Shown here: one piece after another, positions 1,378-15,106 of the stretch
How positions within the stretch are numbered: position 1 is the first letter of the stretch
Layout: every line of letters begins with the position of its first letter
NCBI RefSeq assembly: GCF_900108915.1
Contig: NZ_FNYH01000008.1
Coordinates: forward strand, 1 to 64,000
Length of the DNA stretch: 64,000 nucleotides
Origin: Allopseudospirillum japonicum
Lineage (GTDB): Bacteria > Pseudomonadota > Gammaproteobacteria > Pseudomonadales > Halomonadaceae
Direction of reading: 5' to 3'
Notes under the pieces: model-generated
Told to the model about the DNA's origin: nothing
Databases searched by the model: none
Seen by the model: the letters and a program-made list of their open reading frames with translations, nothing else
Position numbers and translations under genes: made by a program

Positions 1378-3570
1378 ATGATGGAAGCCTCTGTCGTACA
1401 GGAACATTTAAATCTCGTATGGATGCTGGTGGCGGCTGCAATGGTGATGCTGATGCAAGCCGGTTTTACTGCGCTTGAATCTGGCTTAACTCAAGCAAAA
1501 AATACGATTAATGTCGCTATCAAAAATATCACTGATTTTATTGTCGCTGTCTTATCTTTCTGGGCGATTGGCTATGGTTTGATGTTTGGTGACACGAGCA
1601 GTGGTTGGTGGGGGAGCAATCTATTCTTTTTGCATACAGAAGATCCCAGCTTATACGCCAGTTTTGTCTTCCAAGCGACTTTTGCGGGTACTGCAGCGAC
1701 CATTGTCTCTGGTGCGGTGGCTGAGCGTATGAAGTTTATGGCATATGTGGCAGCTGCTTTTGTACTCACCACTTTTATTTATCCTATTTCTGGCCATTGG
1801 ATTTGGCACCCTGAAGGCTGGCTGGCAGAAATGGGCATGATAGATTTTGCTGGCTCAACGGTCGTGCATTCTTTAGGCGGTTGGGTTGGTTTGGCTGGTG
1901 CTTGGATTATCGGGCCGCGTTTACATCGATTTAACGCACAAGGTCAAGCCCAGCCTATTTATGGTCATTCTTTAGTATTGGCAGTGGTTGGGGTGCTGAT
2001 TCTTTGGTTTGGTTGGTTTGGTTTTAATGGCGGCAGCACCTTAACCGGCGATGCCAGTATTGCCCCGATTATTGCGAATACATTATTAGCGGCTGCCGCT
2101 GGTGGTGCGGCTTGCTTTGTGACTTCTGCACTTTTACATGAACGCCGTGAAGTGCAAGTTGAAAAGCTACTCAATGGTGTCGTGGGCGGTTTGGTAGCCA
2201 TTACCGCAGGCTGTGCTGTGGTTGAGCCTTCTGGGGCAGTTGCTATAGGTTTTTCTGCAGGCTTGGTGACCTTTGCCGCGGAACACGTCATCTTGCATGT
2301 TTTAAAGATTGATGACCCGATTAATGTCGTTGCTGCGCATGGGTGTGGTGGTGCTTGGGGTACCTTGATTCTGGTATTTTTTGCAGATCCCAGCCAGTTA
2401 GTGAACCAATCTTTAGGTGATCAATTTATCGTACAACTGATTGGTGTGGCTAGCGTATTTGCTTGGGGATTTGGATTAGGTTGCTTGTTATTTTGGCTGT
2501 TAAAGCAAATGAACTGGCTGCGTGTGCCGCCAGAGGATGAAGAGCGCGGTCTCAATGTGAGTGAGCATGGTGCTAGCTCTGCGGTATTAGATTTACAAAA
2601 TGCCATGCATTCGATTATTCAAGACGGCAATTTGACCCGTCGTGTGCGTGTGGAAATTGGCAGTGAATACGCGCCTTTAGCCCAAGTCTTTAATCGCTTT
2701 ATGGACAGTTATGAAATGGCGATTGGCAAAATTCAGCGCAGTTCTAACAAAATGCAAAACTATGCTGCTTCGATTGCTCAAGCAGGGGAATCGCTTAATC
2801 AGGGGGTGGCTAGCCAAGAAGTCCAAACAACGCAAATTGCCGTAGCTATTGCGGAATTGAGCCAAACGGCTACCGAAGTTGCGCATACGATTCGAGCGAC
2901 CTCAGAAGGAGCGCATAGCGCCGCACAAGATGCGCACACAGGTGAGCAAGAAGCAGAACGTACTCTAGTGCATATTCAAAATTTGGCAGCACAGATTGAG
3001 CAAGTGACGCAAGTGGTGCAACAAGTAGAAACCGATACCCAAGCGATTTCTAGTATCTTAAGTACGATTGATGAAGTGTCTGAACAAACCAATTTACTGG
3101 CATTAAATGCGGCGATTGAGGCGGCACGTGCGGGAGAAGCCGGACGCGGGTTTGCGGTGGTGGCAGATGAAGTCCGTGCCTTATCACGTAAAACACGTGA
3201 TAACACGCAGCATATTTATCAAACGATTCACACACTGCGTGCAAAAGTAGGGCAATCAGTCCAAGAAGTGCAAGCCAGTTTGGAGCAAGCGAATCTCAGC
3301 GTGCTTGCAGTCCAGCAATCTGGCGAGACTTTTAAAAGAATTGCCACCCAGGTACAGGCGATTAGCAGTCAAAGTACCCAGATGGCGGCGACTGCAGAGC
3401 AACAAAGCCAAATTGCGCATGAGGTGAATTTGAGCACTCAAGCCATTAGTGAGGTCGCGCATACTAATGTAGCGCGCCTGCGTGAAGTGGCGGAGCGCAA
3501 TCAAGAATTGCAAGCAATGGCATTGCGTTTAGCAGATTCAGTGGCGCGCTTCCAGGTGTCCCCTGTGTAG
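1378..3570 (+). CDS. Ammonium transporter fused to a methyl-accepting chemotaxis domain
   Basis: A protein of 730 residues. Residues 1-400 are an Amt/Mep/Rh ammonium channel with about 11 membrane helices. It keeps the twin pore histidines (H164 in [10 protein letters not shown]321 in [11 protein letters not shown]) and the FQATFAG and VAERMKF segments of the outer gate. Residues 400-450 look like a linker with HAMP-like character. Residues 450-730 form a chemoreceptor signalling coiled coil whose tip is [19 protein letters not shown] (from about residue 569), the part that docks CheA and CheW. The likely role is sensing ammonium, possibly with transport, and feeding the chemotaxis kinase. 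Sensory Amt fusions to kinases and GGDEF domains are known; whether this one conducts is open. ATG codons at 1378 and 1381 both fit the TAGGAG site. The 3' end overlaps the convergent EamA gene by 33 bases. Confidence 0.92.
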
Positions 3571-6109: not shown

Positions 6110-6520
6110 ATGCAAGCACTTCACAAAATTCAAGTGACGGATTATATGTCACATGACACTTACCATATTCTAGAAACCCAAGATATTGCGCAAGCAGCCA
6201 AAGCCTTACGTGAGCATCGTTTGCCTGGTGCGCCTGTCACCAATGCGCAGGGTGAATTGATTGGGTTTGTTTCTGAGCATGATCTGTTACGTCAGTTATT
6301 ACAAAGCTCTTATCACTGTGATAGTGCAGCCAAGATAGGCACGGTTATGCAAACCCAGGTTGTTTCAGTGAAACCCAGTGATAGTATTATTGAAGTAGCA
6401 GAAATGATGAGTGGTGATAAACCGAAAGTCTATCCTGTCGTTGAAGGTAAAAAGCTGGTGGGAATTATCACGCGGCGTGATATCTTAAATGCCCTGTTAG
6501 CAAATCGCCAAAATTGTTAA
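6110..6520 (+). CDS. CBS-domain pair protein
   Basis: A protein of 136 residues made only of two CBS motifs in tandem (about 10-65 and 75-133), which together form a Bateman module that binds adenosyl nucleotides. Landmarks are TDYMSHDTYHILETQDIAQAA, HRLPGAPVTN and VVEGKKLVGIITRRDIL. Stand-alone pairs act as energy or redox sensors on partner proteins; no partner is obvious here. A strong AAAAAGGAG lies upstream and a terminator follows. Confidence 0.85.
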   Translation: MQALHKIQVTDYMSHDTYHILETQDIAQAAKALREHRLPGAPVTNAQGELIGFVSEHDLLRQLLQSSYHCDSAAKIGTVMQTQVVSVKPSDSIIEVAEMMSGDKPKVYPVVEGKKLVGIITRRDILNALLANRQNC

Positions 6521-6532
6521 GCTGATGTGTAT

Positions 6533-6560
6533 AGCAGGTGTCTAGCGGGCATCTGCTTTT
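6533..6560 (+). terminator. Intrinsic terminator after the CBS gene
   Basis: AGCAGGTG (6533-6540) pairs with CATCTGCT (6550-6557), with one G-U pair and a nine-base loop, followed by TTTTGTT. It isolates the DAHP synthase leader from the CBS gene. Confidence 0.7.
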
Positions 6561-6615
6561 GTTGGTCTCTACTTATTATTTGACACAACCTATTTGACGC
6601 AAAGAGGGAAATCTC

Positions 6616-6738
6616 ATGCCTTATGCAACTTATTATGCTTGGCCTATCCAGTGGCGATTTAGTCATTTATTTACCCTAAATACTTGTAGATTGGCGGCCA
6701 GTGTGCCTTTACTTTGTGTTCGCGTTCGACGTCGGTGA
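6616..6738 (+). CDS. Leader peptide for aromatic amino acid attenuation
   Basis: An ORF of 40 codons with AGAGGG upstream of its ATG. Seven of its first 19 residues are aromatic: Tyr at 3, 6 and 7, Trp at 9 and 13, Phe at 15 and 19. The rest has none. It sits just upstream of a DAHP synthase gene, the first enzyme of the shikimate pathway. The stop codon (6736-6738) falls in the loop of the antiterminator described in the next entry. The peptide would sense charged tRNAs for all three aromatic amino acids by ribosome stalling, as trpL and pheL do for single amino acids. Confidence 0.8.
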   Translation: MPYATYYAWPIQWRFSHLFTLNTCRLAASVPLLCVRVRRR

Positions 6739-6782
6739 TTTCTCATTAAAGATGTCAACGCCTCGTGATAGAGTCGTTTTTT
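6722..6782 (+). promoter_or_regulatory. Attenuator: antiterminator and terminator hairpins before DAHP synthase
   Basis: Antiterminator: 6722-6733 pairs with 6751-6761 (11 pairs, one bulged C at 6727, one G-U). Terminator: 6757-6764 (AACGCCTC) pairs with 6771-6778 (GAGTCGTT), one mismatch, loop GTGATA, then six T at 6777-6782. The two share 6757-6761 and exclude each other. A ribosome stalled on the aromatic codons (6622-6672) leaves the antiterminator free. A ribosome at the stop (6736-6738) covers it and lets the terminator form. The terminator stem also hides the GAG that serves as ribosome site for the ATG at 6783. Confidence 0.75.
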
Positions 6783-7817
6783 ATGTTAACCCAAGCGGTC
6801 ATCTCGCCTGCAGATCTTATTCGTCAACTGCCAGTTGATGCCTCCTTAAGTGCCAGTATTCAAGCCCATAGAGCACAAATCCGCCGTATTTTACATCAAG
6901 AAGATAAACGCTGGTTGCTGATTGTCGGCCCCTGTTCCGTGCATGATGTGGACGCCAGTTTAGAATACGCCCATGCCTTAGCGGATTTGCAAGCACAATG
7001 CGCCTCCCAGCTTAAATTAGTGATGCGTGTTTATATTGAAAAACCCCGCACGCACTTGGGTTGGAAAGGCTTGGCTTATGATCCCCATTTAGATGAAAGT
7101 GACGATCTTCAGCAAGGTCTTTACCTGAGCCGCCAACTTATGCGTGCTTGTGCGCGTTTAGGCCTTGCGGTAGCGACTGAGGTTTTAAGCCCTTTGGTCG
7201 TGCCTTATATGGCTGATTTAGTGAGTTGGGGAGCGATTGGTGCACGCACCAGTGAATCGCAAACTCATAGAGAAATTGCCAGTGCCTTGCCTTATCCGGT
7301 GGGTTTTAAAAACACCACAGATGGACAAATTCAAATTGCGATTCAAGGGATGCAAGCGGCTGCACGCGCCCACCATAGGTTGACGATCAATGCCCAAGGC
7401 CAGTTGGTCCGTGAGCAAACCGCAGGTAATTTGGATACACACTTGGTACTGCGTGGTGGTCATCAAGGGCCAAATTATTCGCATCAACACCTGCAAGCCT
7501 ATACCCATTTGAGTCAGAGTCTCACAGGGCGCCAGGTGCCTATGTTAGTTGATTGCAACCATGCCAACAGTGGCAAGCGCGCCGATTTACAGCCAGAGAT
7601 TGCCTTGGATGTGCTTGCCAGTACCTTAAGTGCACAATTACCTGTCGTTGGCTTGATGTTAGAAAGCTTTCTCGTTGGTGGACAACAGGCGAGTGCTTGC
7701 GTGTATGGACAATCCATCACGGACCCTTGTTTAGACTGGGCCAGTACGCAGCATCTGATTTTGCAAATTCAACGTGAGCTTGAGCAAGCGCGGCATTTCC
7801 AGTCGGTTTGTGCCTAA
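6783..7817 (+). CDS. 3-deoxy-D-arabino-heptulosonate-7-phosphate (DAHP) synthase
   Basis: A protein of 344 residues from the ATG at 6783; a GTG at 6765 would add six residues but lies inside the terminator loop. It condenses phosphoenolpyruvate and erythrose 4-phosphate, the first step to chorismate. Landmarks of the short-chain class I enzymes (AroF, AroG and AroH of E. coli, about 350 residues) are IVGPCSVHD, VYIEKPRTHLGWKGL, GARTSESQTHREIAS, LRGGHQGPNYS and VDCNHANSGK. Metal ligands are expected at the conserved Cys of GPCSVHD and the His of RGGHQ. I cannot say which of the three isozymes it matches in feedback specificity. Expression is likely set by the upstream attenuator. A terminator follows. 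Confidence 0.95.
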   Translation: MLTQAVISPADLIRQLPVDASLSASIQAHRAQIRRILHQEDKRWLLIVGPCSVHDVDASLEYAHALADLQAQCASQLKLVMRVYIEKPRTHLGWKGLAYDPHLDESDDLQQGLYLSRQLMRACARLGLAVATEVLSPLVVPYMADLVSWGAIGARTSESQTHREIASALPYPVGFKNTTDGQIQIAIQGMQAAARAHHRLTINAQGQLVREQTAGNLDTHLVLRGGHQGPNYSHQHLQAYTHLSQSLTGRQVPMLVDCNHANSGKRADLQPEIALDVLASTLSAQLPVVGLMLESFLVGGQQASACVYGQSITDPCLDWASTQHLILQIQRELEQARHFQSVCA

Positions 7818-11821: not shown

Positions 11822-12055
11822 GCCAAACCGAGGACGTCACTATCACAGTCTAAATTGATGTGGTAGTGGCGACTTTAAACGAGTTGCCAAAAGGCAATGG
11901 CTGTCAGGCTCGCTAGCTTGTTAAAAAATCACGGGGGCTGAAAGTGCATGGCACTGAATAAGGAGGAGCAAGCCCGCTGGTCATTAGGGATAAAGACACT
12001 GGAAAAGCGGCCTTGATGGTGTCAGTTTTGCAAATTTATTTTTCGGAATTTGTGT
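11822..12055. other. Leader region before the propeller diguanylate cyclase
   Basis: 234 bases with several short stems (for example AGTGC-ATG-GCACT at about 11943-11955) and a 22-codon ORF at 11948-12016 (starts MALNKEEQARWS) behind GGGGG. Neither is convincing alone. I compared it with the GEMM c-di-GMP riboswitch pattern and did not find the conserved core. Confidence 0.35.
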
Positions 12056-15000
12056 ATGCGTCCAACCAGTCTGCTTACTCACTTGCAGTGCTATTTAAGC
12101 TTGATTTTGCTGAGTTTCAGCGCTGGTTTGACGGCGGTCGCTAGTACTCAAGCAACCGATCCGCAAAAAATTCCCTTACGTGATTATTTCGCTGAAACTT
12201 GGTCAACTCGTGATGGTCTCCCGCATAACAGCATTAATAGCATGGCACAGACGCCAGAAGGGTATCTGTGGTTTGCCACTTGGGAAGGTGCGGCACGTTA
12301 TAACGGTCACGCATTTCGTATTTATACCCGAGGACAAGAAACCCACTTACCTGATTCCGGCTTGCGTGCTCTTGTTACAGATGATGAAGGTCGTCTATGG
12401 GTCGCAGGATCGCGTGGTGGTATGAGCTCTTGGTATCAAGATCAATGGCATCCTTATCCACAAGCAGCAGGTATGATTAATCATCTTTTATGGGCCGATG
12501 AAGGTGATTTATGGTTTGCTATCGAAGGAATGGGGGTGTATCAAAGACCAGCGGCTAGCTTGCATACGAATGCGCAAGATCAGGCCGTGCTCAAGGATCT
12601 AAGCGCTTATTATCTCGTGCAAGATCAAGCAGGCGATTTATGGGCTGCCACCGATGAGGGCTTGTATCAGATTGATCCGGTAAATCGGCAAAGCCAAGCG
12701 ATGAGTCTGCGCCTTGGTTTGCCACCAGGACGAGTTTTCACCCTGCAGTTATTAAAAACAAAAAATCAACTTTTGATCGGGCATGAGCAAGGCTTGTGGC
12801 AGCTCGATTTACATACTTTAGCGCTTAAGTTAGTACATCCACAACTGGCACAAGAAGCCGTCACTGCTTTAATGCTAGACTCACATCAGCATCTTTGGCT
12901 GGGGACTTTAAATCACGGTCTCTATCGATTAGGTAGTCCTGATTGGCAAGTCTTAGAAAAGTTAGATGCATCCGCAGGTTTGCCGAATAACCGCATTTTG
13001 TCCCTACTCGAAGACCAAGAAGGCAGTATTTGGATTGGTACCAATGGTGGTTTATTTCGCTTGCGGGCAGCGCCTTTTGTCTCTTGGACCCCTCGGCATG
13101 GCCTAGCCGGTTACTATGTGCGCACCCTGCTCAGTCATCCACAAGATCAAAGCGTCTGGATTGGCAGTAGCACAGGATTAAATCGGTATAGTGCGCAAGG
13201 TGCGTTAACGACGTTAGCGCTTGCCACTGAAAGTCATCAGCAGACGCCTTTATCCGTACTGAGTTTAGCGGTATCACCTCAGCAGTATCTTTGGGTTGGC
13301 ACCTACACACAAGGCTTGCTAAAAGTTGTCGGTGAACACTTAGAACCTGTATTAAATCGACAAACAGGTCTAAGTAGTAATGAAGTCCGCGCGATTTTAG
13401 AAGACAGTCAAGGCCGAATTTGGATAGGTACAGCGTCTGGCTTGAACCTTTGGTATCCACAGCGTCAACAAGTATACACCTATACGCAGGCACAAGGCTT
13501 GCCGGCAGATTTTATTATTGGGTTGGCAGAAGATGAACAAGGCCGTATCTGGATAGGTACAGGGGAGGGCGTCAGTTATTTAACGCCACAAGCACACCAA
13601 GAAACCCCAGCACACTTACAGCAAGGCTTGCCTGGCGAGCTAACACATCTTAACTTAACGCCCTTAGATCAAGCTGAATATGCGTTTGGTTTTTATCAAC
13701 AGCCAGGCTTTATGTGGATGACAACCGACAGAGGTTTGATCCGTTATCGTTATTCGGATAGTCATCTGGCTTTGGTTGCTCGCCGTCATGGTTTGCCAGT
13801 GGATAAATTATTCCAAGTGGTGGCAGATAGCCAAGGTGGATTCTGGCTGACGAGCAATCGGGGGGTTTTGCGTATTCAACAACAAGAGGCCCATGCGATT
13901 GCCGATGGCTTAAGTTCACGTATTCAGTTTGAACATTATGGCGAAAGCGACGGTATGCTGAGTGCACAAGCAAACGGTGGCTCAAACCCCGCAGCGACTG
14001 TCGATCATCAAGGACGTGTCTGGATTGCCAGTGCTCGCGGGGCGGTTAAAGTGCAGCCGCAAGATTTACAAGAAGCAGGCTTGTATTATCCACCTGTCGT
14101 ATTAGAAAACTTGCAAATAGATGGACATACTTATCCTCTTGTACCAACACAAAAAATCAAATTACCTGCAGGAATACAAAGGCTAGCCATTACTTATGCC
14201 GGTTTGGGCTATGTGATGCCGCATCGTATTGAATATCGTACGCGCTTGCTGGGTTTTAGTTCTGATTGGATTGTCCGTGATCATCAAGCCCTTGTTGAAT
14301 ATACCAATTTGCCACCGGGAGATTATCGCTTTGAAGTGCAAGCACGTTATCCTTATGGTCAATGGGATGGCCCTAGCACACATTTAGTGTTTTCTATCCA
14401 GCCGCTGGTATGGGAACGTATGGAATTTAAAGCCTTAATGGCCGGTGCAAGTTTAGCGCTTGTGCTTGGTTTGATGCGTTGGCGTACTTGGCATTTAAAG
14501 CGTAACGAACAACATCTTTCAGCCTTGGTAGATCAAAAAACCTACGAATTACAGCAGCAAGCCAGTGTCTTGGCACGTCAGGCCAATGAGGATCAGTTAA
14601 CTGGCTTAGCGAATCGACGTGCGCTCGATGCTTGGTTAGCTAAGACGTTTTATCATGCGCAGCAAGCAAATCGCCCCTTATGTTTGGCGATTTTGGATAT
14701 AGATCATTTTAAGCGAATTAATGATACTTGGTCACATTTGGTGGGAGATCAAGCGATTTGTGCCCTAGCAAAAATTTTGAATACGCACTTGCCGACAGAT
14801 TGCAAAGTCGCGCGTTGGGGCGGGGAAGAATTTACGCTGATTTTGCCAGAACGCTCGTTAGAAACCGCTTATGCAGAGTGCGAACACTTGCGTAAATTAA
14901 TAGAAGGCCAAAATTATAGTGCTTTGGCAGAAGGCTTACAGATGACAGCGAGTTTTGGTTTAGCCTCACGCGAAGGCGCTTTAGATTACAACAAAATGCT

Positions 15001-15106
15001 CAACCATGCGGACCAAGCTTTATATCAGGCAAAAGCCCAAGGACGTAATCAGGTAGTGATTTGGCAACCTGAAATGAGCAACACTGAGGCAGACACATCG
15101 TGCTGA
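12056..15106 (+). CDS. Periplasmic beta-propeller sensor diguanylate cyclase
   Basis: A protein of 1016 residues. It has a signal peptide (to about 33), then two seven-bladed propellers built from 'two-component regulator propeller' repeats (typified by DxxGxxWIGTxxGL, about 45-680), a Y_Y_Y domain (about 700-775), one membrane helix (about 796-815), a short coiled coil and a C-terminal GGDEF domain with an intact GGEEF signature (ARWGGEEF). The GGDEF part makes c-di-GMP in response to a periplasmic or exported ligand, perhaps a glycan fragment as in related hybrid sensors. The RxxD inhibitory site expected five residues before GGEEF is absent (PTDC instead), so product inhibition is doubtful. 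I prefer the ATG at 12056 over an upstream TTG at 12050. Confidence 0.9.
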   Translation: MRPTSLLTHLQCYLSLILLSFSAGLTAVASTQATDPQKIPLRDYFAETWSTRDGLPHNSINSMAQTPEGYLWFATWEGAARYNGHAFRIYTRGQETHLPDSGLRALVTDDEGRLWVAGSRGGMSSWYQDQWHPYPQAAGMINHLLWADEGDLWFAIEGMGVYQRPAASLHTNAQDQAVLKDLSAYYLVQDQAGDLWAATDEGLYQIDPVNRQSQAMSLRLGLPPGRVFTLQLLKTKNQLLIGHEQGLWQLDLHTLALKLVHPQLAQEAVTALMLDSHQHLWLGTLNHGLYRLGSPDWQVLEKLDASAGLPNNRILSLLEDQEGSIWIGTNGGLFRLRAAPFVSWTPRHGLAGYYVRTLLSHPQDQSVWIGSSTGLNRYSAQGALTTLALATESHQQTPLSVLSLAVSPQQYLWVGTYTQGLLKVVGEHLEPVLNRQTGLSSNEVRAILEDSQGRIWIGTASGLNLWYPQRQQVYTYTQAQGLPADFIIGLAEDEQGRIWIGTGEGVSYLTPQAHQETPAHLQQGLPGELTHLNLTPLDQAEYAFGFYQQPGFMWMTTDRGLIRYRYSDSHLALVARRHGLPVDKLFQVVADSQGGFWLTSNRGVLRIQQQEAHAIADGLSSRIQFEHYGESDGMLSAQANGGSNPAATVDHQGRVWIASARGAVKVQPQDLQEAGLYYPPVVLENLQIDGHTYPLVPTQKIKLPAGIQRLAITYAGLGYVMPHRIEYRTRLLGFSSDWIVRDHQALVEYTNLPPGDYRFEVQARYPYGQWDGPSTHLVFSIQPLVWERMEFKALMAGASLALVLGLMRWRTWHLKRNEQHLSALVDQKTYELQQQASVLARQANEDQLTGLANRRALDAWLAKTFYHAQQANRPLCLAILDIDHFKRINDTWSHLVGDQAICALAKILNTHLPTDCKVARWGGEEFTLILPERSLETAYAECEHLRKLIEGQNYSALAEGLQMTASFGLASREGALDYNKMLNHADQALYQAKAQGRNQVVIWQPEMSNTEADTSC

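Follow-up and report, generated by a model that had tools for sequence, protein, structure and literature searches.

Leader ORF and alternative hairpins upstream of DAHP synthase

We analyzed a stretch of 64,000 nucleotides of Allopseudospirillum japonicum (contig NZ_FNYH01000008.1, positions 1 to 64,000), referred to here as the window; the genome to which it belongs has a size of 2.74 Mb. The window contains a gene for DAHP synthase, the entry enzyme of aromatic synthesis, which serves three end products, and this gene is preceded by a short ORF rich in aromatic codons and by two alternative hairpins (Table 1). A CBS-domain gene upstream of the leader ends at position 6520 and has a terminator-like hairpin of its own. 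No sigma-70-like promoter was recognized by the consensus scan, and the second DAHP synthase of this genome (C21) has no aromatic leader. At 1378-3570, the window also encodes a possible ammonium chemoreceptor, in which an ammonium transporter (PF00909) is joined to an MCP signalling domain (PF00015), and at 12050-15106 a large sensor with two-component regulator propellers, a Y_Y_Y domain, and a GGDEF domain.

Table 1. Features of the DAHP synthase locus and their coordinates in the window
Feature	Position	Strand	Details
Terminator-like hairpin of the upstream CBS-domain gene	6533..6566	+	Consensus scan: 11-pair stem, then TTTGTTGG; separates that gene from the leader
Shine-Dalgarno GAGG of the leader ORF	6604..6607	+	8 nt before the leader ATG; basis, sequence
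Leader peptide ORF, class leader B	6616..6738	+	40 codons; translation MPYATYYAWPIQWRFSHLFTLNTCRLAASVPLLCVRVRRR*; alignment score with the leaders of relatives reached by 0/500 shuffles
Invariant core TGGCGATTTAGY (Trp-Arg-Phe-Ser), presumed main stall site	6652..6663	+	Present in relatives of the Halomonas family and in other families
Weak candidate degenerate pseudoknot	6669..6704	+	6669-6674:6686-6691 and 6680-6684:6700-6704; AT-rich; 17/200 shuffles as good, not significant
Antiterminator/anti-sequestor hairpin	6722..6761	+	11 pairs, leader stop codon in loop
Off-hairpin and T6: weak terminator and/or SD sequestor	6757..6782	+	Hairpin 6757-6778, T6 6777-6782
AGAG, only SD-like sequence of DAHP synthase	6770..6773	+	In 3' arm of off-hairpin; basis, sequence
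DAHP synthase, type I AroFGH, regulated gene	6783..7817	+	344 aa; NCBIfam PRK12755/TIGR00034, Pfam PF00793

An earlier note on this DNA had proposed a leader peptide attenuator that reads Tyr, Trp, and Phe ahead of DAHP synthase, based on an ORF with seven aromatic residues among its first 19. This ORF was confirmed, with Tyr at codons 3, 6, and 7, Trp at codons 9 and 13, and Phe at codons 15 and 19. Among the 3524 starts of the window that are followed by 19 open codons, it is the sole case with at least seven aromatic residues and at least two each of Tyr, Trp, and Phe, and the same combination was found at none of 283 starts in shuffles of the intergenic stretch. As judged from its sequence, the ORF is a member of a class that we designate leader B (peptide ...Y-Y...W-R-F-S). 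(i) It carries the core TGGCGATTTAGT in frame, with Tyr codons before it and DAHP synthase downstream. (ii) The best alignment score with the leaders of relatives was 54, which was equaled by none of 500 shuffles; an example is the alignment of MPYATYYAWPIQ-WRFS of the window with MNYATYYRYDTCAAWRFS of a Pseudomonas-family genome. (iii) A covariance model of the class gave 16.6 bits on the window at 6652-6707. (iv) The distance of 44 nt between the leader stop and the DAHP synthase ATG is within the limit of the class of about 50 nt. Outside its context, the short motif alone is without meaning, since the pattern GCGATTTAGY gave 18 matches in the window's own genome versus 17 for the reversed control.

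Both hairpins of the earlier note were recovered, with some corrections of detail. The 11 pairs of the antiterminator join 6722-6726 to 6757-6761 and 6728-6733 to 6751-6756, with C6727 bulged (-14.7 to -15.5 kcal/mol). The leader stop codon (6736-6738) lies in the loop, as had been described, though folding predicts an additional small helix inside it (6734-6738 with 6743-6747). The off-hairpin pairs 6757-6760 with 6775-6778 and 6762-6764 with 6771-6773 around a C6761/U6774 mismatch (-6.5 kcal/mol). Of the bases said to be common to both structures, 6757-6760 are indeed shared and paired, but C6761 is mismatched in the putative terminator. The T6 run is present, its first two T being paired inside the off-hairpin stem, and the DAHP synthase ATG (6783-6785) follows it immediately and not after one intervening base. 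Since the Shine-Dalgarno (SD) sequence of DAHP synthase lies inside the 3' arm of the off-hairpin, the latter can act on translation too. In 1,000 shuffles that kept the T-run and shuffled the remainder, hairpins at least as good were obtained 2 times for the antiterminator, 24 times for the terminator, and once for both, in support of the mutually exclusive pair claimed earlier; the genus of the window is represented by one genome in our comparison, and the pairings are predicted from that single sequence. The consensus scan did not list the hairpin at 6757-6778 as a terminator, because as a terminator it is weak, and no 1:2 protector hairpin was evident in the predicted fold of 6616-6800. 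The single genome and the ordinary folding energy of the whole region (z -1.15) are also what a chance ORF with chance hairpins of no function would present. The exact in-frame match to a core that is conserved across families, the similarity to other leaders, and the rarity of the hairpin pair among shuffles make this explanation very improbable.

Leader classes of DAHP synthase in relatives

Orthologues of the DAHP synthase (45-54% identity) were retrieved from 138 of 151 family genomes and from 67 of 294 genomes of the order, and the upstream regions of 140 loci of the Halomonas family (f1) and related genomes and of another 19 loci from the order-wide search were read. The Halomonas family includes Halomonas, Chromohalobacter, Vreelandella, Kushneria, Terasakiispira, Larsenimonas, and Marinospirillum; a further family, f21, is regarded here as the Pseudomonas family, since P15, a Pseudomonas sRNA, has matches at its loci. 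Two leaders were distinguished. Leader A is located upstream of leader B, its peptide ends in ...GYWFS, and an intrinsic terminator follows, which was detected in 89 of 147 cases by a strict test and in 129 of 147 by a relaxed test, the strict test being too strict for leader A and the relaxed one too loose for leader B. By motif search, 101 of the 138 Halomonas-family loci have both leaders, 31 have leader A only, 4, including the window, have leader B only, and 2 have neither. In the window, no leader A was seen between 6521 and 6615.

A segment of 12-13 codons includes all three of Tyr, Trp, and Phe in 120 of 122 distinct A leaders and in 94 of 98 distinct B leaders. Codons for the three amino acids of the earlier proposal thus recur together in relatives, and this joint content is the best support for the idea that all three products of the pathway are read, so that the predicted sensing of Tyr, Trp, and Phe by the leader is well supported. 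The earlier note had named a lack of conserved aromatic codons in relatives as an argument against itself; on examination, the leader is conserved and its codon core is fixed.

Leader B constitutes, on comparison of these loci, an undescribed leader class that directly precedes the DAHP synthase gene in Pseudomonas and across the Halomonas family. In 112 of 114 loci, its stop codon is separated from the DAHP synthase start by -4 to about 50 nt, and stop and start overlap as ATGA in three genera (g6, g9, and g12). The 86 distinct W-R-F cores, which were gathered by peptide and not by DNA motif, all spell TGG CGA TTT, whereas CGA accounts for 48 of the 1174 Arg codons in nearby DAHP synthase genes. 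The codon after Phe is AGY or AAN in 80 of the 86 cores, Ser at this position never being encoded by TCN (the window has this codon at 6661-6663), and the Phe codon of leader A is TTT in 111 of 113 cases. This codon invariance is, at the level of sequence, more than amino acid sensing requires. One guess is that these codons were frozen because CGA and codons ending in U are decoded slowly. Another is based on the finding that codons starting with AG or AA after Phe create a TAG or TAA in the -1 frame immediately behind the hungry codons in 80 of 86 B and 92 of 113 A leaders; a -1 frame stop at this site may be what is maintained.

About 6 nt after the core, the 38 non-redundant leader B sequences of the Halomonas family can form an H-type pseudoknot (columns 19-25 with 41-47 and 34-39 with 58-63). 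The paired fraction of cells in these columns was 91.3%, compared to 81.9% in shuffles, and the covariation score was 0.306, compared to 0.137 for shuffles and no more than 0.110 on sliding. Changes on both sides were observed in 9 of the 13 pairs, and RNAalifold lengthened the first stem as far as columns 17-18, with additional compensatory changes. In genomes of the Halomonas and Pseudomonas families, a covariance model of the first stem only gave essentially a single match each, located upstream of DAHP synthase; there was a single weak extra match in the Halomonas family (G058:C11, E 0.003) and none in other families of the order sample. This pseudoknot is undescribed and absent from Rfam, and the Rfam scan of the window and its relatives gave no match for leader B. 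A convincing pseudoknot was not found in the window at the register of its relatives, in the f44 genomes, or in some genomes of the Pseudomonas family. A role of its CACCTCC segment as an anti-SD sequence for the GGAG of DAHP synthase was considered and rejected, since it suits several genera but not g2, which has a different SD sequence.

The pseudoknot, together with the invariance of CGATTTA(G) at the nucleotide level, would also be consistent with a riboswitch or a protein-bound RNA in which the reading frame is incidental. However, Tyr codons recur in frame, in varying number, before the core, the ATG has an SD sequence, and the ORF is open in all genera, even in a few relatives (L237 and L247) that have kept the core and the reading frame but have dropped Trp. 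We therefore consider a riboswitch or protein-bound RNA improbable.

Proposed mechanism and level of control

The ORF, its codons, the alternative pairings, the homology to a conserved leader class, and the joint Tyr/Trp/Phe content were observed directly, and the region 6616-6782 probably acts in cis to control DAHP synthase, as a sensor of aromatic aminoacyl-tRNAs that is operated by the ribosome. From this anatomy we infer ribosome stalling, the direction of the response, and the level of control. If Tyr, Trp, or Phe were short, the ribosome would stall between codons 3 and 19 (6622-6672), chiefly around TGG CGA TTT; segment 6722-6733 would be free to pair with 6751-6761, the hairpin at 6757-6778 would be dissolved, and DAHP synthase would be made. 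Since a stall at any of the seven aromatic codons leaves 6722-6733 free, each single shortage would favor the 11-pair hairpin. With all three amino acids plentiful, the ribosome would arrive at the stop codon and mask 6722-6733, and the hairpin at 6757-6778 would form. The latter would lower expression by hiding the AGAG sequence and, via T6, perhaps by ending transcription.

The mechanism proposed earlier was that of a trp-type terminator. Its leader ORF is real, but the conserved downstream element in relatives is a pseudoknot, and a T-run of at least five between the leader B stop and DAHP synthase was found in 2 of 114 loci, namely, the window and one other. For the window, such a terminator is one of two live options. 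In its pure form, 6757-6778 and T6 would be an intrinsic terminator and only RNA polymerase would be controlled. This would agree with the position of T6, which abuts the hairpin, and with the antiterminator sharing the 5' arm of the hairpin. In addition, leaders A of relatives carry intrinsic terminators, as detailed above; the window has no leader A, so that leader B may have assumed its role, and the fact that this lineage has lost leader A favors some terminator role of the off-hairpin. On the other hand, this hairpin is weak, has an internal mismatch, holds two of the six T in its stem, and is missing from the consensus scan, and the leader B relatives are practically without terminators, the strict test being positive in 1 of 116. 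Pure transcription attenuation is thus a tentative and somewhat doubtful reading.

The other option is attenuation at the level of translation, with transcription untouched, through SD sequestration in the window and through the pseudoknot and the overlapping or adjacent stop and start codons in relatives. The location of the DAHP synthase SD sequence in the 3' arm of the hairpin, the short stop-to-ATG distances, and a covarying pseudoknot that lacks a U-tract point in this direction, and the conservation of leader B favors it. Because leader B ends at most 50 nt from the start codon, is associated with a pseudoknot, and usually has no terminator, its control in most relatives looks translational, as far as sequences can tell. 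However, T6 is an unusual feature that this option would leave as a coincidence without explanation, and overlap by itself does not reveal the sense of the response. Purely translational control of the window locus is a serious candidate, although we stop short of calling it probable.

Pseudomonas sRNA P15 and known attenuators

Rfam family RF00627 (Pseudomonas sRNA P15) coincides with leader A and its terminator at L239:1055-1172, L241:2822-2942 (minus strand), L250:1064-1184, L252:1107-1226, and L242:1105-1222. Between the P15 match and the DAHP synthase match downstream lie 330-450 nt, and leader A of the Halomonas family gives a weak RF00627 match as well. The window's genome contains no RF00627 match, nor does the segment 6400-6900. 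A survey from 2008 reported P15 as a confirmed sRNA of Pseudomonas aeruginosa that, from synteny, may be a riboswitch (PMC2527527). Its coincidence with leader A suggests that P15 is probably an aromatic attenuator's terminated leader rather than an sRNA that acts in trans, which offers a testable identity for an sRNA of unknown function. In a literature search that covered mostly openly accessible journals, we found no paper naming P15 as an aromatic attenuator leader. P15 resembles leader B in that it, too, is an RNA encoded ahead of this DAHP synthase; it differs in corresponding to leader A, which is absent from the window. Leader B is located downstream of P15 and has no entry in Rfam.

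A wider model appears to us evenly balanced between right and wrong. Leader B would be a new class of translation-level aromatic sensor, with a codon-frozen stall site (TGG CGA TTT A) followed at a fixed spacing by a pseudoknot or, in the window, by a substitute hairpin, and would act in series with a P15-type transcription attenuator. In Pseudomonas and the Halomonas family, two tandem ribosome sensors of Tyr, Trp, and Phe would then control DAHP synthase, P15 being the terminated leader of the first. The comparison brings forward tandem leaders and a nucleotide-frozen stall codon context before a covarying pseudoknot that is missing from Rfam. One leader that reads all three amino acids by codon would explain how the cell can monitor their combined supply without repressors of the TyrR or TrpR kind. 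DAHP synthase is also a main target in the engineering of aromatic production, so that the removal of such leaders would be of practical use.

The trpL and pheL attenuators sense one amino acid each and have strong terminators and a 1:2 protector stem, and multi-residue attenuation is already known from the thr and ilv leaders. The window resembles enteric trpL and pheL in its leader ORF, control codons, and mutually exclusive hairpins, but differs in having codons for three amino acids and a weak hairpin that overlaps the SD sequence. Attenuation of DAHP synthase as such is already known: the Corynebacterium glutamicum aroR-aroF attenuator (Neshat et al. 2014, as reported in PMC11802643 and PMC7356990) is an established ribosome-mediated, Phe-responsive system. 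As in the window, an aromatic-codon leader peptide lies upstream of DAHP synthase, and in aroR, stalling raises expression. Unlike the window leader, aroR has Phe-Tyr-Phe only, responds to Phe and not to Tyr, belongs to a different phylum, and has no W-R-F core; the window leader in turn has no F-Y-F and a different core. The uORFC-13-1 motif upstream of aroF in Acholeplasma, a predicted uORF with Phe codons before the DAHP synthase gene, for which ribosome-mediated attenuation is predicted (PMC8632094), is unrelated to the window leader in sequence and structure, and a further source cites a 1980 study on Escherichia coli aroF for a Tyr-tRNA attenuator (PMC2659441). In Bordetella ansorpii (L103 and L106), a Phe/Tyr-rich leader-like ORF of its own kind, MPLMNFAHPAFFFYFYAFLKPLAEEG, was observed approximately 240 nt upstream of the DAHP synthase match.
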